DNA of 36,979 bases from Oscillospiraceae bacterium (GTDB lineage Bacteria > Bacillota > Clostridia > Oscillospirales > Ruminococcaceae). Shown piece by piece: positions 25,355 through 36,979 of this stretch (the stretch's first letter is position 1; the number at the start of each line of letters is the position of its first letter). The position numbers were made by a program, and so were the translations under genes. The DNA lies in NCBI GenBank assembly GCA_009786985.1, contig WRGW01000101.1, positions 1-36,979 on the forward strand. Direction: 5' to 3'. The notes beneath the pieces are model-generated. The model made no database searches. It saw only the letters and a list, made by a program, of their open reading frames with translations, and was not told where the DNA came from.

Positions 25355-27496
25355 TTATGCCAGTTCAAAGTCAACTTGTCCGAGCGGCACGCTGCAACCA
25401 ATACACTTGACAGTCACTTTATCACCAAGTGTATACCGCATTCCAGTCGCCGAATTTGCGAGTGTAACACCATTTTCAATCGTTGTTTCGCCTGTCAACC
25501 CCGAGAACCTGTCACCGCTTCTAAACGAAACACGACCCTCGACAGTGTTCTGAAGCATCACAAAAACACTCGTTTCAGTGACGCCAGTGATTACGCCCTC
25601 AAACACTTCGCCGATGCGACTTGACATATATTCAGCAGAGTAAAAACCATTACAATCTCTCTCAGCGTTCACCGCTTTCATTTCAGCAAAAGTGGATTTA
25701 ATCGCAGATTCATGAGCGAAATTTTCGTGCTTTTTATTAGGTTTACCACTCTTGACGTAGTCGGACAAAATCCTGTGAATGCTAAGGTCTGGGTAGCGAC
25801 GAATTGGGGAAGTAAAGTGTGCATATTCCTTCATCACAAGCCCAAAATGCCCAAGCGGTTCATCAGAATACTTAGCTTTCATCATTGAACGCAATACCGC
25901 CATATTCACCACAGCAAATTTATCACCGCTAAACGCCTCCAGCTTTTTTGCCACTTTCAAAGCGTTCGATAAACTCTCAGCAGTAGGCTTAAGTTCAGGT
26001 ACAGCAATCCCGAGACCTGCAAGCGTTTCAGAAAGCCGAGTAAGTTTTTCGGCCACTGGTGCTTCATGAACACGGTAAACGAACGGGAACTTTTTTTCCA
26101 TAGCAAGCCGAGCCGCAGCGTTATTCGCAAGCAACATAAATTCTTCGATTATACCCTCAGAAATTGCATCTTCACCCGAACCCCGCCTTTGAATATCAAG
26201 ACAATCGCCAGTTTCAGGGTCGCAGATAATTTTGCTCTCCGCTGACTCAAGCGATGGCGCACACCTACCCTCACGATTCTTTTTTAAAATATTGGCAAGC
26301 TCATACATAACTGGTATTTGCTCAAAGACTTCTGAATACTTTTTATATAATTCGCTTGGAATATCACTCTGTCTTTTAGCGACTGTTCCAGCCTTTGTCA
26401 TTTTTATGTTCTTTAGAATCTCGTTGATTTCGCTGTAAACACCCTGAACTCGTGAGCTGATTATGCTTTTTTTAAACTCAAAGTTCTTTAATTCGCCACT
26501 TTTGGCAACTTCCATTAAACAAGAAAACGCAAATCTCTCGACTTGCGGATTAAGAGAACAAATCCCATTAGAAAGAGCTTTAGGGAGCATTGGAACAACT
26601 AAATCAGCAATATAAACACTCGTTCCACGTGCGAACGCCTCTTCGTCCAACGCACTCCCTGAACGGACGTAATGCGACACATCAGCGATATGCACACCGA
26701 GCCTATATCCACCTCTAACACGTTCAATGCTAATTGCATCGTCAATATCTTTGGTATCAGCACCATCGATTGTAAAAATCGGAACATCACGCAAATCAAG
26801 TCTATTTGGAATTTCTACACTATCTATTTCTTCACCGCAAGAGCGTGCCTCTTTTTCGCATTTGCGTGAAAACACTGTAGAAATTCGCTTTTCTTCTAAA
26901 TACGCTTCAACACAGACTCTTGCTTTTTTTGAAGAACCATATACTTTTTCAATTTTTGCGATATGATGGTGATGTTTATCGCCACGAGAAACAATGTTAA
27001 AACTCACCTTATCGCCGAGTTTTAACGCCTCCAAGTCTACATCATCCACTAATTTGAGCGGATACCGTGAACCAAAACTGTCTGGTGATATGCCGATTTC
27101 CTGCTTATCGTTGTACTCATCGAGAACAACTGTCCCAGTTAACATATTATCGCTAGGTTTTATGACTTTGGTGATTCTAACTTCATCTAATCCCCCCGGT
27201 TCGCGTGGAGGGGCGTGTTTCACAAATTCGACAATATCGCCAGTAACAGCACCCTTCATATCACGCCCAGACACAAAATATTCGGTAAAATCGGGAGCGT
27301 TATCAGCTTTTCTTATAAAACCATGAGTTCGCACAACACGCATAACTTCCCCAGTTAGTACCAAAGCGGCATTAACGTTTTGATTACGCTCCGCCGCTTT
27401 TGAGTTATTATTTTTTGTGGACTTTGAAGCCTTTCCCGATTTTCGAGCTTTTACAGACTTGCCAGACTTTACAGATTTTCGAGGCTTTTTAGGCAT
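25355..27496 (-). CDS. rnr: Ribonuclease R
   Basis: RNase R is a processive 3'-5' exoribonuclease that degrades structured RNA and helps tmRNA quality control. The 713-aa protein has a Lys/Ser-rich N-terminal tail (about residues 1-35), cold-shock domains, and the RNB catalytic core beginning IFTIDGADTKDIDDAISI with its metal-binding aspartates. HFTSPIRRYPDLSIHRIL follows, then a C-terminal S1 domain (GEVFEGVITGVTETSVFVML). Its ATG overlaps the secG stop (TAATG), so the two are translationally coupled, as is common for secG-rnr in Firmicutes. Confidence 0.96.
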   Translation of the reverse strand: MPKKPRKSVKSGKSVKARKSGKASKSTKNNNSKAAERNQNVNAALVLTGEVMRVVRTHGFIRKADNAPDFTEYFVSGRDMKGAVTGDIVEFVKHAPPREPGGLDEVRITKVIKPSDNMLTGTVVLDEYNDKQEIGISPDSFGSRYPLKLVDDVDLEALKLGDKVSFNIVSRGDKHHHHIAKIEKVYGSSKKARVCVEAYLEEKRISTVFSRKCEKEARSCGEEIDSVEIPNRLDLRDVPIFTIDGADTKDIDDAISIERVRGGYRLGVHIADVSHYVRSGSALDEEAFARGTSVYIADLVVPMLPKALSNGICSLNPQVERFAFSCLMEVAKSGELKNFEFKKSIISSRVQGVYSEINEILKNIKMTKAGTVAKRQSDIPSELYKKYSEVFEQIPVMYELANILKKNREGRCAPSLESAESKIICDPETGDCLDIQRRGSGEDAISEGIIEEFMLLANNAAARLAMEKKFPFVYRVHEAPVAEKLTRLSETLAGLGIAVPELKPTAESLSNALKVAKKLEAFSGDKFAVVNMAVLRSMMKAKYSDEPLGHFGLVMKEYAHFTSPIRRYPDLSIHRILSDYVKSGKPNKKHENFAHESAIKSTFAEMKAVNAERDCNGFYSAEYMSSRIGEVFEGVITGVTETSVFVMLQNTVEGRVSFRSGDRFSGLTGETTIENGVTLANSATGMRYTLGDKVTVKCIGCSVPLGQVDFELA

Positions 27497-28077
27497 TACT
27501 CGTCACCATTAGTGCCGTTATCAGATTCACCGCCATTAGTGCCGTTATCAGATTCACCGCCGTTAGTGCCGTTATCAGATTCACCGCCGTTAGTACCGTT
27601 ATCAGATTCACCGCCATTAGTACCGTTATCAGAGTCACCGCCATTAGTACCATTATCAGAGTCACCGCCGTTAGCGCCGTTATCAGATTCACCGCCGTTA
27701 GTGCCGTTATCAGAGTCACCGCCATTAGTGCCGTTATCAGCAGGCGCTGGTCCAGCAGGTTGCTGTTCACCTTGATGCCCAGTGCCTCCGTTTGTTGCGT
27801 TTTCAGTGTCTGTCGCTTCGTTATCTCCCAAGCGTGCAGCAATCAAGTTTACAGCAATCGCCACACTAAAGAAAAGTACCGCTAATACAGTTGTGCCTTT
27901 TTTGAGCCTTGCTTCTTTTGAACGACCCATATTTCTTTGATAATAGTTATCAGACCCCTGCCCAGTAATCGACTGTGACATTCCTCCTTTTTGTGCCCCT
28001 TGAAAAAAGACGATTATTATAATCAGTATACAAGATAAAATCAATAAAATCGCACTGACAATTTCAATTGTACTCAT
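27496..28077 (-). CDS. secG: SecG translocase subunit with a long repeat tail
   Basis: SecG assists SecYE in protein export. The first ~83 residues are a normal SecG: helix 1 (IVSAILLILSCILIIIIVFFQGAQKGG), the conserved loop SQSITGQGSDNYYQRN, and helix 2 (KGTTVLAVLFFSVAIAVNLIAARL). Typical SecG ends near residue 75-85, but this 193-aa protein continues with a low-complexity linker and nine copies of a nine-residue repeat of the form DNGTNGG(D/E)S to the C-terminus. If SecG has its usual topology, the acidic, Asn/Gly-rich tail is outside the membrane. A consensus promoter lies upstream and GAGG precedes the ATG. The tail is encoded by a 27-bp minisatellite. Confidence 0.92.
   Translation of the reverse strand: MSTIEIVSAILLILSCILIIIIVFFQGAQKGGMSQSITGQGSDNYYQRNMGRSKEARLKKGTTVLAVLFFSVAIAVNLIAARLGDNEATDTENATNGGTGHQGEQQPAGPAPADNGTNGGDSDNGTNGGESDNGANGGDSDNGTNGGDSDNGTNGGESDNGTNGGESDNGTNGGESDNGTNGGESDNGTNGDE
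27499..27738 (-). repeat. 27-bp minisatellite inside secG
   Basis: Eight full 27-bp units and one 24-bp partial unit sit in frame at the 3' end of secG. Units differ only at a few positions, chiefly GAC/GAG (Asp/Glu), synonymous third positions, and one Ala for Thr. The near identity indicates recent expansion and likely variation in copy number between strains. Because the unit is a multiple of three, changes keep the downstream TAATG junction with rnr in frame. Confidence 0.95.
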
Positions 28078-28138
28078 TTTTCGTTATTCCTCTCTTTAGT
28101 TCCTTGTGTAGTATAGTCAAAATTTTATACCACCGTTA

Positions 28139-28167
28139 ATTATACCTCAAAATATATGAATTGTCAA
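28139..28167 (-). promoter_or_regulatory. Sigma-A promoter of secG-rnr
   Basis: On the minus strand, TTGACA (28167-28162), 17-nt spacer, TATAAT (28144-28139): a perfect consensus, about 60 nt before the secG ATG. Confidence 0.9.
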
Positions 28168-28183
28168 TACTTTTTGAAGTTTT

Positions 28184-28203
28184 TTGAAAAAATATTTTTT
28201 CAA
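28184..28203 (-). terminator. AT-rich palindrome after the tRNA gene
   Basis: A perfect 20-bp palindrome, TTGAAAAAATATTTTTTCAA, begins one base beyond the tRNA-Arg discriminator base. Its second arm is U-rich in RNA. It may help end tRNA transcription before the secG promoter, though it is not a GC-rich intrinsic terminator. Confidence 0.4.
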
Positions 28204-28204
28204 C

Positions 28205-28276
28205 CACCCCTGATAGGAATCGAACCTATAATTAATCCTTAGGAGGGAACCGTTATATCCATTTAACTACAGGGGC
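28205..28276 (-). tRNA. tRNA-Arg (anticodon CCU)
   Basis: The 72-nt gene folds as a standard cloverleaf: acceptor stem GCCCCTG/CAGGGGT, D arm GTTA-AATGGATA-TAAC, anticodon loop CTCCTAA with CCT reading the AGG codon, and T arm ATAGG-TTCGATT-CCTAT, with discriminator G. CCA is not encoded. The anticodon stem is weak, with a G-U pair and a U-U mismatch at its outer end. No promoter is evident in the 62 nt to the upstream GHKL ATPase gene, so it may rely on transcription from that unit or on a promoter inside it. Confidence 0.93.
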
Positions 28277-28282
28277 ATACTT

Positions 28283-28334
28283 AGGGCAACACCACACCAA
28301 CCGCTTACACGCTGGAATTGTGTGGTATTGCCTT
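28283..28334 (-). repeat. 15-bp inverted repeat between the GHKL gene and the tRNA gene
   Basis: The arms at 28283-28297 and 28320-28334 pair with one mismatch and one G-T pair around a 22-nt loop (GGCAAxACCACAC against its complement). No U-tract follows. It could be a weak terminator for the GHKL gene or a processing structure upstream of tRNA-Arg. Confidence 0.6.
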
Positions 28335-28338
28335 GGAA

Positions 28339-31300
28339 CTATTTCCCTAAATTATCTTCAACCCATTTAGCTGCCAAAAGTGGCGAAAGTTCAAAATCAA
28401 TCGAAGTTTGTGGAGTCGAAAACGCTTTTCCGTGTAATCTATCCAAACCAAATACTGGGATTTCATGGGTGACACGTGCAGTATAACGAATGCTACAGTG
28501 CAAAAACTCTGGCGAAATAATTTTGGCAGAAACTATTTCTTTTAGCCATACAAACGGGTTCATTCCACCAATTGCAACATCTTCAATCACCCACCCGTTA
28601 GAAGCGTGAGCATCGTTAGCACACATATACAACGAGAAATTCCAGACTTTTTCTTTCTCTATTTTATCGGCAGTTGAAATGATTTCTACCAGAAAATCTT
28701 TAAACACAAAGCTGTTAATAGTTTCAATTTCAGCTTTGCAGACTGGACAACAACCACCGTATCCGAATAGTTTGTGATTAACATCTTTTGCAAAATAATT
28801 GCGATAAGGATTCTTGAAAGCGTGATTTTTAGAAATCGTAGAAGAAACAGTAGAAGTGTTTTCGGAATTTTCAACATCCTCACTTGGCTTAACCGAATCA
28901 ACCAGTGATTTTAATCGGCGGAATTCTGTGCGAAGATACTCAAACTCCTCACTCGTGATTTCGGGGAGAGGGCGATTATAGTAAGGCATCTGGTCTGGCA
29001 AAACAATGTTAGGGCGAACATTTTTAACAAGTGATTGTGAGATAAGCCCATGACATTCACCAGTCAACAGTTTTTCGATTATATCTGCAAATTCTGCCTT
29101 AGTACAGTCATCACGTAAGACAACCATTCGCACGATTTGCCCATCGAATTCTTCAGGAATAGCCTCATCCGCTTCAATCATCGCCAAGAATTTATCGCCA
29201 ACTCCGAGTAGTGCAACTTTGTCAACCCCTAAAGGCGATACAAACAAACGTGGCAAAATATTTTGCACGTCCTCAAGATAAACATCTTCATTTTTTAACA
29301 GTTTTTGGATTGTGTTAGCATCGAACGAATATTTTACTTGCGAAATCGGGAAATCAAACCGTCTGCCAAAAAGCATTCCAGTTTCAATCATAGCGTCAAT
29401 ATCTCCAACGATTTCATACATCTGTGAGTTAGTAATCCTGCTCGGAATAATAAACTGATTCCCGTAAACAGAGAAACGATATTTTTTGTTCACATCAAGA
29501 GAAAGCGTAACTTTTCCGCCCTGTGATTTTATTTCTTTAAGAAAAGTAATCGTATCTTTACCAGAAGTGAACACGTTCAAAAGGGCTTTTACAGTATCAC
29601 CAAACGCCCCCGCCGTATCAAATCTATGACGACGTGTCTGTAATGTTTCGATTGCGTTTCTAATATTTCCAACTTTGATTTTAGAAATGTCAACCGTGTG
29701 TGTTTCATCGCTATCTCCATCCCTTGAAATGAATAACTGATAATATTTCATAGTGACTCTATAGTCTTCATCAAAAGCATCGTCCATAAAAGCAAAGACG
29801 GATTCAAATGCGTTTTCATCTTCAATGAAATTGCCTTCACCGAAAAAGCGGTTTAAAGCCATGCCAACAATGCTATTAAATCCGTGTCGCAAGTTATAAT
29901 CCTGCAAACCCGGTTTAACTTTTGATTCTACGATATAAGTCCCGCTACCACGTACAAATTCATAATAAAACTCACGCCCTGAAACAAGTGAATCTTTTGA
30001 TTTAGCAGGCTGGCTCTGCTCTACTTGTTCTAACGCAATATCAGATTTTGTGTTAGAGTCTGATTCTGAATTAGCCTCCCACTCATATACAAGGCAGAAG
30101 GTTCTATCACCCACGCCATTTGCATGAGGCAACTGAGCAATCATCTTATTGCGTTCGCCAATGATATATTTATCATACGCTTCACCCGAATGATGTTCCT
30201 CACCAGAAACGCCACCTTTTTCAGAAAGATACGCCGTTTCTTTGAGTGCAAGATAAGGCACTGGTTTAGCCTCATTCGGGAACTGGATTGAAATGTTCTC
30301 CTGAAAAGTATTCTTTAAGTTTTTAACTAAACTTGAACTCACAATAAAGTTTTTAATAAACTCAAAAGCGTAAGATTTTGGTCTAAAAGCATATCTGTCT
30401 TCACCTTCCGATATCGCATTGGGGAGCTTGAAAATATCTAAAATAAAATAATCACTATACGCTTCAATAAGGTCTTTTACGCCTTTTTCCACCATATTCG
30501 CCACGATTTGCTCAGAATCGGCTTTAATTCCAGTCCGGTGTGACGTTATATAGTCGTTAGAAACGCTTATAAAAAACGCAGATAATTTCTCATCAATAAT
30601 CCGTTCACTCGTATCGGCTTTGATTAAACCAGTAAGCTCATAAGTCGAGAAAAAATTATATTTCTGCATGAAAACACGAACAATACTCTGGCGTTTAGAT
30701 GCAGCAACCGCAAATGGAATTAGATATGAAAACCCTTCCTGCTCATAACAAATAAAGTCAACAACGCTTTTATTATCTTGGAAAAAACGTATGATTTTAT
30801 TAGGGCTTTCTCTGTTTTCTTTGTTTTCACCAGCATATGAAATTTTATATAAAGTCGCAATTTTACCTTTGTCCATAACAGCAATGTTAAAAGTTCGATT
30901 AAGTTCTTCCACATCTTTTTCTTGAACATTCATCACCTTTTTACGATTGAACGCAAAACAAAGCTCAACCAGATTGATGAAATCACCTTTTTTATCACCT
31001 AAAGTCATAAAATTGTCTTTCATACGCTCATACTGTTCTGGTAAAACTTTTATATTGATTTCGGTGCCTTTTACAAGTTCGCGCAAAAGGTCAAGCTCGG
31101 TGATTTTAAGTGTACCATCTTGATTTTCGATTTTGAAACCAAAATTGTTAGAACGCATAGTAAGCATTTGTGTATTCATGAACACACTTTTTGCACCTAT
31201 ACCAAAACGACCTTCTTTATATTTGTCGATTTTATTACGTCCAAAAGCAAGATAGTATAAAAACTGTTCCATGGTAAATCCAATTTCGTTGTAAGACAAA

Positions 31301-31620
31301 GAAATAATATTGTCTTCTTTGAAATTTACGATGATTTTTACATCTGGCGTGTCGTAAAAACAGTCAAACGTGTTTTGCAAAAGCTCCCTAAACACGCTTT
31401 CAAAAGGATAGTCTTTAACACTTACAAGTGCGTTAAAAGATGTTCGACCGCTAAACATATTGTTATAATAAGCAATAAAAGGTTGGCTGTCAAGATTACC
31501 TTCAAAAATTTTGCGTTGTAAAAGTTTGAGAGGACCTTCCATACCTTCTTTATCGCCGTTAGCGTGTGCCTGATAAAAGTCACCTATTACTTCTGGTATA
31601 GGCTTTTCAACATATCCCAT
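28339..31620 (-). CDS. Large GHKL (Hsp90/MORC-type) ATPase, unknown function
   Basis: The 1093-aa protein has an N-terminal GHKL (Bergerat) ATP-binding domain: N box FRELLQNTFD with Glu79, Asn83 and Asp86; YNEIGFTM (111-117) in place of the usual DxGxG; and GRFGIGAKS (137-145) as the glycine-rich lid. The following ~800 residues match nothing I recognise. They include an acidic low-complexity insert near residue 520-550 and a Ser/Thr-rich linker near 915-935. Near the C-terminus, Cys958-x2-Cys961, Cys1000 and His1005 could bind zinc. It lies 224 nt after a degenerate SNF2-like gene on the same strand. The closest architectures I know are sacsin/MORC-like ATPases paired with helicases in bacteria. 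Function is unknown. Confidence 0.75.
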   Translation of the reverse strand: MGYVEKPIPEVIGDFYQAHANGDKEGMEGPLKLLQRKIFEGNLDSQPFIAYYNNMFSGRTSFNALVSVKDYPFESVFRELLQNTFDCFYDTPDVKIIVNFKEDNIISLSYNEIGFTMEQFLYYLAFGRNKIDKYKEGRFGIGAKSVFMNTQMLTMRSNNFGFKIENQDGTLKITELDLLRELVKGTEINIKVLPEQYERMKDNFMTLGDKKGDFINLVELCFAFNRKKVMNVQEKDVEELNRTFNIAVMDKGKIATLYKISYAGENKENRESPNKIIRFFQDNKSVVDFICYEQEGFSYLIPFAVAASKRQSIVRVFMQKYNFFSTYELTGLIKADTSERIIDEKLSAFFISVSNDYITSHRTGIKADSEQIVANMVEKGVKDLIEAYSDYFILDIFKLPNAISEGEDRYAFRPKSYAFEFIKNFIVSSSLVKNLKNTFQENISIQFPNEAKPVPYLALKETAYLSEKGGVSGEEHHSGEAYDKYIIGERNKMIAQLPHANGVGDRTFCLVYEWEANSESDSNTKSDIALEQVEQSQPAKSKDSLVSGREFYYEFVRGSGTYIVESKVKPGLQDYNLRHGFNSIVGMALNRFFGEGNFIEDENAFESVFAFMDDAFDEDYRVTMKYYQLFISRDGDSDETHTVDISKIKVGNIRNAIETLQTRRHRFDTAGAFGDTVKALLNVFTSGKDTITFLKEIKSQGGKVTLSLDVNKKYRFSVYGNQFIIPSRITNSQMYEIVGDIDAMIETGMLFGRRFDFPISQVKYSFDANTIQKLLKNEDVYLEDVQNILPRLFVSPLGVDKVALLGVGDKFLAMIEADEAIPEEFDGQIVRMVVLRDDCTKAEFADIIEKLLTGECHGLISQSLVKNVRPNIVLPDQMPYYNRPLPEITSEEFEYLRTEFRRLKSLVDSVKPSEDVENSENTSTVSSTISKNHAFKNPYRNYFAKDVNHKLFGYGGCCPVCKAEIETINSFVFKDFLVEIISTADKIEKEKVWNFSLYMCANDAHASNGWVIEDVAIGGMNPFVWLKEIVSAKIISPEFLHCSIRYTARVTHEIPVFGLDRLHGKAFSTPQTSIDFELSPLLAAKWVEDNLGK

Positions 31621-31651
31621 ATCATGACCATGCCTTTCTCTGTGTTATTTC

Positions 31652-31839
31652 GCAAAACGAGAGTTGCAGTGTCGACGGCTTCGCCATCGAGCAGGCAACT
31701 TGAAGAGCAAAACGAGAGTTGCAGTGTCGACGGCTTCGCCATCGAGCAGGCAACTTGAAGAGCAAAACGAGAGTTGCAGTGTCGAGATAACCCACTACAG
31801 CGAAGCAAAGCTCCGCTTTCGGGGCATACTCTTGTTTTA
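31652..31839. repeat. Folded tandem repeat array (55-bp period) between the helicase-like and GHKL genes
   Basis: Two full 55-bp units and a 24-bp partial third start at 31652, 31707 and 31762. Each begins GCAAAACGAGAGTTGC and contains a hairpin TCGACGGC-TTC-GCCATCGA inside an outer GTTGC/GCAAC stem. After the partial unit comes another hairpin, GCGAAGC-AAA-GCTCCGC, at about 31800-31816, and the element closes with ACTCTTGTTTTA, complementary to its opening AAAACGAGAGT. The unit is homologous, in reverse orientation, to the 54-bp units at 36889-36979. Confidence 0.9.
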
Positions 31840-31844
31840 CCTTG

Positions 31845-33929
31845 CTAAATCACACCATTATTATAGTCGTTCATAAATTCTCTAAGTTCTCTTTTATTAT
31901 CTTTGTGCAGTTTGCAATATTTCCATATGTTATACAAAGTAGGAGTTTTGAGAGCCTCGGGTAGCTTTGAGAGAACTTCACGAACTGGCGGATATTCGCC
32001 CGATTTAGTTTTTGAAATCAACCTTTCAAGTTCTGCTTTTGCCATTTGAACACCTTTGACAATTTCGTGTGACGAATATTCACCAGTCAGCTTTTCTAAA
32101 TTGTTTGAGTTTTCGACGATTTTCGGAACATCGCTTGCTTCTTCATAATAAACATATCCGCTTTTGATTCGGTTAAGGCTTTCTCTAATCTTTTCGTGTA
32201 GAATGTCAACCTGTTTTGCACTTAGATTTTCATTTTTCCCGTTTTCAAAAAGCAGTGTTTCAACTTCGAGGAGGCGGGATAACTTCTCTAAAAGTTGTTC
32301 GGCATAAGCGGCGGATTTTGCCACAGTCGAAACCAGCCCTCTATCAGCGATATTGTATTCCACACCGAATTTTTTTACACCTCCTCCACCAGATTTTAAA
32401 TCAAGCAAAGTTTTTGAGATATATTTCTCAGCTTCAGGAACCCAGAATAACACGTTTTGAGTAGGGATTTTTGTTTTGATACATTTGTGTAATTGTCCGA
32501 ACATAACTTTAGCCAAAATTCGACCATCAAACTGCATTTCTTTGTCAGCAAACATAATAAACTCTTCAGGAATGAGGAGATTTCCACAACCTGCACGTGC
32601 TGTTCTGAAAAATCTCCTCTCTAATTCAGCTGGATTTTCTGGATATTCATAATTGAAGACGTGAGTGACCTTTCCCATACCATGATAATGCTCACCAATA
32701 GAATCAGTCGCTAACGTAATTCGCCCTACATCTTCGTTTTCGCCACTGAACCTTAATTTCAAGAAACGGCTATCTAAAACTGAATCAGTACGAGTCAAAA
32801 TCGCATTTTTGTCTTTTAATTCTGGATAAACAGCGTTTAAAACTTTTGAAATATATTCAAGCGTTTCACCAGCAGTAAAGTATATAACAGCGTTATTACC
32901 CTCATTAACTAAGACCGTATCGAGCTTTGTGAGAAAAGCATCCAGCTTAGCATCAGCTTTTCGTAATGTCTCAACATCTTTTTGATTATACCGTACGTGC
33001 CAATATAAGTTCTTGAGTTTTTGAGGAGCCTCAAACTCCTCAAAAAGATTACCGCCATACGTATAATAAGGAACCCCGCTTTGAATATCAACAATTCTAT
33101 TTTTATCAGAGAACATATCACTGTCAACCTCATACTCACAGATTAAAACATTAGGGTGAGTAGTGTTCAATTTCCCGACTGTGTAATAACGAGTGACTGG
33201 TGTTTCTTTAGAAAACGCAACTATTTTTTCGTCAATAACAAGCTCACTAATCATGGATTTTTTTGACTCGTCATACAAAAATGCTTTAAGGAACGCCTTC
33301 AAAAGTGGTAATGACGCAATAACACCATAATCGTTAGAAAAAGGACACGGTGCAAATACGAGTAGCTGATGCGCCTTGTTCTTGCAAGCATCATACCCCG
33401 CAAAATCCGCCCCATCGGTTGCGAGTGCAGCATCAATAATCATCAAATCCCATACAATATTAGCATCAGTAACAATCCCACTTGGAGGTGGAGTTTTAAC
33501 ACGCCTCTGACTATCAATACCTCCAGCCTCGCCATACTCACTCGACACGTCAAGCTCTTCCGTAGTCGCAGGGACTGTTGCTTTAACTCTGAGGCTTTCT
33601 TCACTAACAATCATCAAATTAGAAGTAGCCGACGAAAAGAAAGCAACAGTGCTATCCGTACCAGAGATAAACTTAAAGTCAGCCCCGATTCCAGATAAAA
33701 GCGACGAGTACCACTTTTGCATGAGGGACTGTGGGCAAACAATCAAAATATTAGGTTTTTGATTTTCGCTAAGCACCCTATGAATACAAAGCTCCGCTTT
33801 GTCGACTTTTCCGTTACCAAATTCATCGAAAATCAAAGCATAACCATACTTATTTAGCCTATCGCATACAGATAGGTTGTACGGGTTCAAATCTACACCC
33901 TGGCAAGCGAGCCATTTCAAATCACTCAT
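31845..33929 (-). CDS. Degenerate SNF2/RapA-like helicase-fold protein
   Basis: The 694-aa protein keeps the layout of an SNF2/RapA-type superfamily 2 ATPase. The Walker A region is DEFGNGKVDKA (35-45; relatives have DExGxGKTxxA). Motif Ia is ILIVCPQSLMQKWYSSL. The motif II region WDLMIIDAALA (160-170) has DA where DE is expected. A motif III-like segment LLVFAPCPFSND follows, and motif V/VI spans ITLATDSIGEHYHGM and YPENPAELERRFFRTARAG, retaining Arg442 and Arg445 but not the Gln and Gly of QxxGRxxR. Residues 450-694 are helical with no known domain. The start follows AAAAAGGA. It is first in a two-gene unit with the GHKL ATPase. Catalysis is probably altered or lost. Confidence 0.72.
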   Translation of the reverse strand: MSDLKWLACQGVDLNPYNLSVCDRLNKYGYALIFDEFGNGKVDKAELCIHRVLSENQKPNILIVCPQSLMQKWYSSLLSGIGADFKFISGTDSTVAFFSSATSNLMIVSEESLRVKATVPATTEELDVSSEYGEAGGIDSQRRVKTPPPSGIVTDANIVWDLMIIDAALATDGADFAGYDACKNKAHQLLVFAPCPFSNDYGVIASLPLLKAFLKAFLYDESKKSMISELVIDEKIVAFSKETPVTRYYTVGKLNTTHPNVLICEYEVDSDMFSDKNRIVDIQSGVPYYTYGGNLFEEFEAPQKLKNLYWHVRYNQKDVETLRKADAKLDAFLTKLDTVLVNEGNNAVIYFTAGETLEYISKVLNAVYPELKDKNAILTRTDSVLDSRFLKLRFSGENEDVGRITLATDSIGEHYHGMGKVTHVFNYEYPENPAELERRFFRTARAGCGNLLIPEEFIMFADKEMQFDGRILAKVMFGQLHKCIKTKIPTQNVLFWVPEAEKYISKTLLDLKSGGGGVKKFGVEYNIADRGLVSTVAKSAAYAEQLLEKLSRLLEVETLLFENGKNENLSAKQVDILHEKIRESLNRIKSGYVYYEEASDVPKIVENSNNLEKLTGEYSSHEIVKGVQMAKAELERLISKTKSGEYPPVREVLSKLPEALKTPTLYNIWKYCKLHKDNKRELREFMNDYNNGVI

Positions 33930-34028
33930 AGCTTTTTCCTTTTTGTTGAATTTCTTTTCTTGTGATAGTCGTTTAACTTGAAAATCTATAATGGTTTGCG
34001 ATAATTTTTGGCATCAGACAAGGCAATT

Positions 34029-34130
34029 TTTGTACGAATATTCGCTAATATTCAAACAAAAATTAACGTAGTATGGTGTCAAAAAGACCAAAAAACTTAT
34101 GGATTTTTATGTTAATCGACTATATAGTCG
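34029..34130. repeat. ~100-bp intergenic direct repeat, copy 2
   Basis: This is the second copy of the element at 1-102, lying just beyond the gpmI stop and upstream of the SNF2-like gene. Two more T residues precede the shared sequence, completing an inverted repeat (TTTTTGT, GAATATT, AATATTC, ACAAAAA). It ends in a perfect 14-bp palindrome, CGACTATATAGTCG, beside the gpmI stop; copy 1 has a damaged version. Confidence 0.85.
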
Positions 34131-34132
34131 CT

Positions 34133-35707
34133 TTAATTCAAAAGTGAGTCTTCCCAATTAGAATTAGGCTTCAGCCCAAACAGTTCTGCAACAGTAGGTG
34201 CAACATTAGCGAGACCCCACTTTTCTTCGCCACCATCTTTTAGCTTAACCGATTTGTCACAAACGATAAACGGAACAGGGTTTAATGAATGTGCAGTTCT
34301 TGGTGCAAGCTCACCCTTTTTGTTTTTCTCGAACATTTCATCAGCGTTACCATGGTCAGCAGTAACTAAAAGAGTAAAGCCGTTCTCGGCACAGGCTTTT
34401 TCTAATAGTGCTAAAGATTCATCAACCGATTCAACACCGATTACAGTAGCTTCAAGGCTTCCGGTATGCCCTACCATGTCACCATTAGGATAGTTACAGC
34501 GAATAAAGTCATACTCACCAGATTTGATTGCGGCAACCACGTCATCGGTAATTTCTTTTGATTTCATCTTAGGTTTTTGGTCAAAGCTGATGTTATCAGA
34601 CGGGATTTCTTTATACGTTTCAAGCGTTTCAGAAAACTTCTCACTTTTGTTTCCGTTCCAAAAATAAGTCACGTGTCCGAACTTTTGCGTTTCAGAAACA
34701 GCGTATTGGCGAACGTTATTTTTCACCAAAAGTTCAGAAAGCGTTCCAGTAATTTCTGGTGGGTTTACAAGATAAAGTTCTGGTAGCTTTAAGTCCCCGT
34801 CATACTGGAGCATTCCCGCATACACGACATCTAGTTTAGCTCCTCTATCAAATTTGTCAAAGCTATCGAATGTAAACGCCATCGAAAGTTCAATTGCACG
34901 GTCGCCTCTAAAGTTAAATAAAACTACACTATCACCATCGACGATTTTGCCAACTGGTTCCGCACCATCAGCGATTACAAAAGGCGGTAAATCCTGGTCG
35001 ATTATACCCGCTGTTTCGCTACGGAAAGTTTCAATCGCTTCTTTAGCAGAGGCAAAAGCACGACCCTCACCTTTAACATGAGTCTGCCATCCACGTTCAA
35101 TCATAGGCCAATCAGCTTCGTATCTATCCATAGTGATTTTCATACGCCCGCCACCAGACGCAATTTTTGCACTAAAACCACTGTCATTTAATTCAGCGAT
35201 TACAGTTTCGAGTTTTTCGACATAATCAAGTGCAGAAGTTGCAGGGACATCACGCCCATCAAGTAGAATATGCACACGAACTGTCTTAACACCATCAGAC
35301 TTAGCACGACAGAGCATATCAAACAAATGTTCAATATTAGAATGCACATTACCGTCTGAAAGTAATCCAATCAGATGCAAAGTGCTATTTTTATCTTTCG
35401 TATTACCAGTGATTTTTTTCCAAGTATCAGAGCTGTACATCTTACCACTTTTAATCGATTCGTTCACAAGTTTTGCACCCTGTGAATAAATCTGACCACA
35501 CCCTAAAGCATTGTGACCAACCTCAGAGTTACCCATATCATCATCAGAAGGCAGACCTACCGAACTTCCATGTGCTTTTAATCTCACGTGTGGGAATTCT
35601 TTATGAAATCTATCGAGTGTAGGGGTCTTTGCTTGTTCAACAGCGTCACCCACTCCTGTTTTTGAATATCCAATACCGTCCATTACTACTAATAAAACTT
35701 TTTTCAT
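34133..35707 (-). CDS. gpmI: 2,3-bisphosphoglycerate-independent phosphoglycerate mutase
   Basis: GpmI interconverts 3- and 2-phosphoglycerate in glycolysis using two Mn ions. The 524-aa product has VVMDGIGYS at the N-terminus, the catalytic serine Ser61 in DMGNSEVGHNALG, the substrate-binding HILLDGRDVPATSA, FNFRGDRA, NYPNGDMVGHTG, and the metal site VTADHGNADEM. The ATG follows AGAAAGG. It lies 60 nt after tpiA, in a glycolytic operon. Confidence 0.97.
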   Translation of the reverse strand: MKKVLLVVMDGIGYSKTGVGDAVEQAKTPTLDRFHKEFPHVRLKAHGSSVGLPSDDDMGNSEVGHNALGCGQIYSQGAKLVNESIKSGKMYSSDTWKKITGNTKDKNSTLHLIGLLSDGNVHSNIEHLFDMLCRAKSDGVKTVRVHILLDGRDVPATSALDYVEKLETVIAELNDSGFSAKIASGGGRMKITMDRYEADWPMIERGWQTHVKGEGRAFASAKEAIETFRSETAGIIDQDLPPFVIADGAEPVGKIVDGDSVVLFNFRGDRAIELSMAFTFDSFDKFDRGAKLDVVYAGMLQYDGDLKLPELYLVNPPEITGTLSELLVKNNVRQYAVSETQKFGHVTYFWNGNKSEKFSETLETYKEIPSDNISFDQKPKMKSKEITDDVVAAIKSGEYDFIRCNYPNGDMVGHTGSLEATVIGVESVDESLALLEKACAENGFTLLVTADHGNADEMFEKNKKGELAPRTAHSLNPVPFIVCDKSVKLKDGGEEKWGLANVAPTVAELFGLKPNSNWEDSLLN

Positions 35708-36774: not shown

Positions 36775-36979
36775 AAGCAAAACGAGAGTGCGTCCCTACG
36801 GGGTGGCTCTGCTACCTCGTAGGGATTAGCTTGAAGAACGCTTGCTTCAACGAGTTTCGAGGAAGCCAAGCTTCCTCTTGAACTCTTATTTTGCTTTCGT
36901 CAAGCAACCTGCTCGTGGCATAGCCACGACCTGTTGCTCTTGTTTTGCTTTCGTCAAGCAACCTGCTCGTGGCATAGCC
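36775..36979. repeat. Folded repeat element and tandem array (54-bp period), cut by the window end
   Basis: The first part (36775-36896) has outer arms AAAGCAAAACGAGAGT and ACTCTTATTTTGCTTT enclosing three hairpins: a 14-bp stem CCCTACGGGGTGGC-TCT-GCTACCTCGTAGGG, a TTGAAG/CTTCAA stem, and a perfect 8-bp GAGGAAGC-CAA-GCTTCCTC. It runs into a tandem array of 54-bp units starting at 36889 and 36943, each holding TCGTGGC-ATA-GCCACGA inside a GCAAC/GTTGC stem. The array continues past the window. Confidence 0.9.

Follow-up and report, generated by a model that had tools for sequence, protein, structure and literature searches.

Iyer, Abhiman and Aravind (2008, PMC2292703) describe prokaryotic MORC and paraMORC proteins, GHKL ATPases with a transducer or S5-type domain whose genes often lie beside that of a superfamily II helicase of the SWI2/SNF2 type. 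According to the same authors, pairs of the MORC kind are widely but sporadically distributed, occur mostly with nucleases and methylases and belong mainly to restriction systems; the S5 domain carries the MORC-specific motif GhXhhpXXRhl, and the eukaryotic MORC chromatin proteins are related to bacterial GHKL proteins of this kind. A comparable gene pair was found in contig WRGW01000101.1 of an Oscillospiraceae bacterium (assembly GCA_009786985.1), of which the whole analysed stretch of 36,979 nucleotides is hereafter called the window. It consists of gene B, encoding an SNF2/RapA-like protein, followed by gene A, encoding a GHKL (Bergerat) ATPase that resembles sacsin and Hsp90, and a preliminary description had reported both as same-strand genes of 694 and 1093 amino acids, respectively, as confirmed here (Table 1). 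Like the MORC and paraMORC loci, it joins a gene for a GHKL plus transducer/S5-type domain to a gene of the superfamily II helicase type; unlike them, it is fixed in one clade, its helicase seems to lack an intact ATP site, and no restriction nuclease or DNA methylase was identified beside it among the window genes, part of whose open reading frames (ORFs) were annotated. Among the open-licence papers listed by literature searches, no title or abstract beginning described the pair. The reading preferred here, with a probability of about one half, is that A and B form a fixed, vertically inherited core unit of one Oscillospiraceae-type gut clade, domesticated and composed of a clamp and a non-motor adaptor.

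Distribution was counted by matches to A, in samples of relatives, genus, family, order, class and phylum that overlap one another. A was matched in 35 of 60 relatives and in 69 of 71 genomes of the genus, including all 41 with a completeness of 90% or more and a contamination of 5% or less, and the two genus genomes without a match were 76% and 86% complete. The family sample contained A in 5/148 genomes and 3/123 genera, the order sample in 11/247, every one inside the family, and the class and phylum samples in 2/246 and 1/398, this genus only. B was full-length in exactly those five family genomes having A, while the remaining 16 of the 21 family genomes with a B match showed partial matches within other proteins. 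A scan of one genome per species, covering 84,980 species, gave 70 A loci, nearly all in assemblies titled Oscillospiraceae, Ruminiclostridium, Ruminococcus or uncultured Clostridia, and a few under other titles such as Roseburia, Bacteroides or Eubacterium. B lay directly 5′ of A in 66 of these 70 loci (65 by script and L084 by inspection), and in the other four A started at most 113 nt from a contig edge, so that the two genes belong to one unit, as had been proposed. Of the two signs that the preliminary description had named in favour of a system, consistent co-occurrence was observed; patchy presence was not, within the genus.

Trees were compared for 22 of the 70 loci, those containing A, B and three cell-wall genes. 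A shared 16 of 19 splits with the division/cell-wall (dcw) genes, B shared 14 of 19 with them and A shared 15 of 19 with B, as against two at most after label shuffles. Median ratios of nonsynonymous to synonymous substitution rates (dN/dS), calculated from non-independent pairs with dS of 0.05–2 and identity of 60–98.5%, were 0.091 for A (221 pairs) and 0.118 for B (144 pairs), with a maximum of 0.24 in each case, and 0.121, 0.089 and 0.063 for the comparators spoVD/ftsI (29 pairs), murE (19) and gpmI (19), respectively; A and B are under purifying selection. The distances of A and B were correlated at 0.97, with a partial r of 0.87 after removal of four cell-wall genes, a coupling that hints at a joint function. 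Presence of the pair in nearly every sampled species of the clade argues for a standing cell component rather than a mobile anti-virus system. Since near-universal presence in one clade with tree-congruent inheritance was what the preliminary description itself had held to speak against a mobile or defence system, that reading is rejected in its mobile form and a clade-specific, fixed GHKL/pseudo-helicase unit remains; the housekeeping role, formerly left as an alternative, is now the better of the two.

The profile of B had RapA chains as its best sequence matches in PDB (E 1e-6), and the predicted fold was that of a two-lobed SNF2 helicase, in agreement with the SNF2-like layout noted earlier. 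B has the two RecA-like lobes of an active SNF2/RapA translocase but not the combination of GK[ST] and DE: among 64 aligned rows, the Walker A GK[ST] was present in 14 and the Walker B DE in 6, with none possessing both, while R439 was present in all. B seems to be an SNF2-fold protein without an intact ATP site. The RapA matches would suit an RNA polymerase recycling or transcription factor, with B as a RapA-like passive binder of polymerase or RNA and A as an ATP-driven releaser. However, the best RapA stretch spans only positions 34–141 of the B profile, RapA's other domains not having been searched for, and RapA works through its own ATPase, an activity apparently missing from B; this function is considered very improbable.

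For A, the predicted model aligned with GyrB and TopoVI-B over residues 58–390, and structure comparison placed TopoVI-B, GyrB and Hsp90 in a tie within 1 Z, the model having a predicted template modelling score of 0.51 and an unreliable domain arrangement. NF047352, the sacsin-type N-terminal ATPase domain, matched 21 of 21 A members with E values up to 0.1 (best, 1.3e-8), the window protein scoring 22.8 bits against a curated cut-off of 50; together with the predicted fold, these matches bear out the Bergerat-type ATP site described previously. The N-box Glu and Asn, the G1, G2 and GT motifs and an S5-type/transducer domain, by which the GHKL superfamily is recognized, were all found in A. 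Residues E79, N83, G137, G140, G142, K144 and S145, as well as the transducer arginine R362, were invariant in 69 of 69 rows, T186 was present in 68 and G114 in 67, and the G1 box reads YNExGF instead of DxGxG. The term “degenerate” used in the preliminary description therefore holds for the ATP site of B but not for that of A, whose residues are nearly invariant. Judged by its model, A combines a GHKL ATPase with a transducer like that of GyrB, TopoVI-B and Hsp90. Cys 958, Cys 961 and Cys 1000 were each kept in all 69 rows, suggesting that the C-terminal element containing them may bind zinc. A sacsin/Hsp90-like chaperone, in which A would fold protein by its ATPase and B would be an RNA or DNA tether localizing it, could be imagined from the Hsp90 likeness; but TopoVI-B and GyrB score equally well, the Hsp90-family model NF010683 (Hsp90/HtpG) gave the whole protein 14.1 bits, far under its cut-off of 455, and the constant helicase-fold partner suggests nucleic acid, which makes a chaperone distinctly unlikely.

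Among 173 pattern stretches in viral contigs none was related to A, and no relative of A was observed in plasmids. The phage collection contained a single matching record, MT835670 (L129), over 99% of A and 94% identical to the A of a relative. This record is filed as Bacteriophage sp., marked UNVERIFIED and carries no annotation, and its ORFs correspond to the chromosomal neighbourhood of the A/B clade, so it is probably misfiled bacterial DNA. A mobile element was rejected on these grounds. In PHROGs, A had no match and B matched one unnamed family (E 3e-9). A foreign composition was likewise rejected: neither the GC content (A, 0.370; B, 0.389; window, 0.395) nor the GC content at third codon positions (A, 0.32; B, 0.34; inside the range of 0.29–0.38 spanned by five other window genes) gave a sign of recent import.

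Cousin pairs were found in two genomes. In G657, which belongs to the same genus as the window, a 1193-aa helicase is directly followed by a 1593-aa GHKL protein (L135:4786-13150). In the helicase, an SNF2-related domain scored above cut-off and a Swt1-like HEPN domain below it, and the ATP motifs, unlike those of B, are intact as judged by eye (GVGKT, DEAH and QRIGRIDR); the GHKL protein comprises two sacsin-type GHKL modules, the first of which has YNEVGFT in common with A. By hhalign, the A profile was linked to module 1 (E 9e-10) and the B profile to the second lobe of the helicase (E 2.7e-7); by HMMER, the A profile matched both modules and the B profile had no match at the helicase. This type of GHKL protein is patchy, with any match at 1e-10 in 3 of 148 family genomes, and the G657 pair is likely a two-gene defence cassette. 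A similar helicase–GHKL pair in G435 (L133:4298-11432), with a Swt1-like HEPN domain above cut-off, neighbours a type III methyltransferase and a ResIII helicase. Compared with G657, its GHKL protein was linked to A more weakly (hhalign, E 1.5e-4, without an HMMER match) and its helicase to B more strongly, by both programs (hhalign, 2.3e-7; HMMER, 1.1e-10). Both pairs thus resemble A–B in having a helicase gene and then a GHKL gene, and B can be aligned over its second-lobe region with either helicase; beyond the GHKL domain, no match to A was found in the G657 or G435 GHKL proteins. GHKL and SNF2 domains are common, but gene order plus both weak links suggest a shared ancestry of the pairs, and the loss of the B motifs suggests a change from helicase to pseudo-helicase. 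A defence-type GHKL–helicase ancestry is likely, in keeping with the kinship to such pairs proposed earlier, and most likely the pair descends from a defence or restriction cassette of an SNF2 helicase and a sacsin-type GHKL protein, domesticated before the genus radiated.

In G435, the region L133:4298-16468 carries on one strand genes for the sacsin-type GHKL protein, the HEPN-SNF2 helicase, a ResIII-type helicase and the type III methyltransferase, and may be a composite restriction/defence locus. Contig C81 of the window genome (L132:595-5734) encodes an SNF2/DrmD-like helicase of 872 aa (DrmD, E 1e-94) with more ORFs behind it, which looks like a normal defence-type helicase existing alongside B in one genome.

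With such cousins, one of them intact and the other beside restriction-type genes, the pair might still sense and block phage or plasmid DNA, having turned from a mobile trait into a chromosomal one that is fixed in the clade. The PADLOC models of TmtA, which we take to be Tiamat, match residues 76–151 of A (E 0.0011), and B matches the helicases DrmD (E 2e-13) and HmaA (E 1.5e-9), sharing with DISARM DrmD and RapA the two-lobe SNF2 fold and the motif VI arginine. However, TmtA has the N-terminal GHKL domain, apparently of sacsin type, in common with A over 75 of 1370 profile positions rather than over most of the profile, and B, without an intact ATP site, scores 42.7 bits against the DrmD cut-off of 610. 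Moreover, A is not patchy in the well-assembled genus genomes, no B row has both ATP motifs, the partly annotated neighbours in the window include no identified nuclease or methylase, and relatives are absent from the viral contigs and plasmids, apart from a phage-collection match that looks misfiled. A present-day immune function is thus considered unlikely.

The chromosomal place of the pair was compared among the 70 loci. Of the 46 loci that continue for 3 kb or more downstream, 25 have a dcw gene at most 3.5 kb after A; of the 47 that continue for 3 kb or more upstream, 15 have gpmI at most 2.5 kb before B. The fullest layout was pgk-tpiA-gpmI-B-A-mraZ-rsmH-(ftsL)-spoVD/ftsI-murE-mraY-ftsW-(murG), with gene names checked for the window and L030, spoVD and ftsW being below curated cut-offs and pgk, ftsL and murG being read from sequence. 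A second genus has B-A-mraZ, and in a third (G391 and G633; L122 and L124) rnf electron-transport genes come after the pair in place of the division cluster. The genes that recur beside the pair belong to glycolysis, the cell wall or rnf, annotation having covered a minority of the singleton ORFs of the 70 loci; a place beside gpmI or mraZ-dcw is common, not obligatory. An empty site, with gpmI adjoining mraZ and no pair, was sought in 60 family genomes and gave no clean case: in the six genomes with gpmI about 70% identical, five A-less ones of the family sample and G648, gpmI and mraZ lie on separate contigs, so that the insertion could not be reconstructed.

Several observations weigh against a fixed, vertically inherited core unit. 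The 69 genus matches to A comprise 59 that are full-length and open, two that are full-length with one in-frame stop (G672 and G652) and eight that are partial or split (G657, G031, G680, G653, G671, G670, G655 and G006); seven of these ten imperfect copies are in genomes about 90% complete or more, and they may be due to the ends of contigs, to faulty assembly or to genuine loss. The tree markers are linked to the pair, and the whole block may have been transferred jointly. Control pairs of cell-wall genes, not fully matched as they were conditioned on two others only, reach a correlation of 0.76. Loci outside the common layouts have varied neighbours, the window itself having tRNA-Arg and an RNase II/R gene, and much the same picture would be expected of an immune system that is fixed and under purifying selection.

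In the window, tpiA and gpmI lie upstream of B and A on the minus strand and tRNA-Arg downstream; with gpmI matching TIGR01307 above cut-off and the tRNA found, the site between these two genes had been placed correctly. Past the tRNA follow a SecG-like ORF, read from sequence, and a gene of the RNase II/R family. The translation of the SecG-like ORF (27496-28077) has a long NGTNGG[ED]SD-repeat tail, which is unusual for SecG. B and A are 224 nt apart, 165 nt of which are an array in which a 55-nt unit occurs twice in exact form and once as a 60% copy. The repeat said to separate the genes was therefore verified, its core occurring at 31 genome sites with up to 3 mismatches (28 outside the window array) versus 0 for a reversed-pattern control. 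In relatives, the two genes are separated by −1 to +2 nt at 52 of 65 loci and by −11 to +84 nt at the rest, suggesting that the repeat was inserted between two normally coupled genes. This dispersed repeat is centred on AAAACGAGAGTTGCAGTGTCG, and since six copies are at most 65 nt from a contig start, the assembly was probably broken by it. A further repeat pair was observed at 36883-36979 of the window. The second repeat, thought to border the pair, proved to be a strong hairpin with one copy within the window, a possible transcript end 3′ of A. An Rfam scan of 27900-34300 gave the tRNA alone at gathering score.

Table 1. Features of the A–B locus, with positions in the window
Feature	Position	Strand	Remark
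Gene B, SNF2/RapA-like	31845..33929	-	694 aa; ATP site seemingly not intact; lies upstream of A
Two RecA-like lobes of B, SNF2 type	32460..33923	-	residues 3-490
Motif I of B	33798..33827	-	residues 35-44, DEFGNGKVDK; no active P-loop GK[ST]
Motif II of B	33426..33452	-	residues 160-168, WDLMIIDAA; without Walker B glutamate
Motif V/VI region of B	32592..32672	-	residues 420-446; arginine 439 retained
Dispersed intergenic repeat	31652..31816	+	55-nt units, between B and A
Gene A, GHKL (Bergerat) ATPase	28339..31620	-	1093 aa; sacsin/Hsp90-like kind
GHKL ATPase plus transducer-type domain of A	30451..31449	-	residues 58-390
Putative zinc-binding C-terminal element of A	28612..28749	-	residues 958-1003; Cys 958, 961, 1000
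Strong hairpin between A and tRNA-Arg	28276..28345	-	-28.1 kcal/mol, z -4.8
tRNA-Arg (cct)	28204-28277		borders the pair on the side of A

For the preferred reading, a domesticated core unit of clamp and non-motor adaptor, we infer complex formation of A with B, ATPase activity, a substrate, a process and an ancestry. The conserved ATP site of A, versus 0 of 64 intact sites in B, fits A as the ATP-driven part and B as the recogniser. Upon ATP binding, A would dimerise via its GHKL and transducer domains and close as an N-gate like that of GyrB, MutL and Hsp90, whose established behaviour is the ground for a clamp action. The two RecA-like lobes of B and its helical tail would hold DNA or structured RNA in a static grip and dock A there, a nucleic-acid substrate being suggested by the fold of B and by what SNF2 proteins do in general; ATP turnover by A would then reset the clamp. 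The routine task of the unit in the cell would be to hold or remodel nucleic acid, or else a protein bound to it, and the common position next to mraZ and the division/cell-wall genes makes chromosome-division coordination the first candidate process. That an entire immune-type cassette became a core cell-cycle machine at the base of the clade, lodged between glycolysis genes and the division/cell-wall cluster and acting on the chromosome during division with the dead helicase as nucleic-acid grip and the GHKL protein as sole engine, is a tentative and rather doubtful proposition.

If true, fixation of such a pair with its helicase dead and its clamp conserved would represent a natural case of MORC-like recruitment inside bacteria, and the clamp role would be separable from helicase activity.

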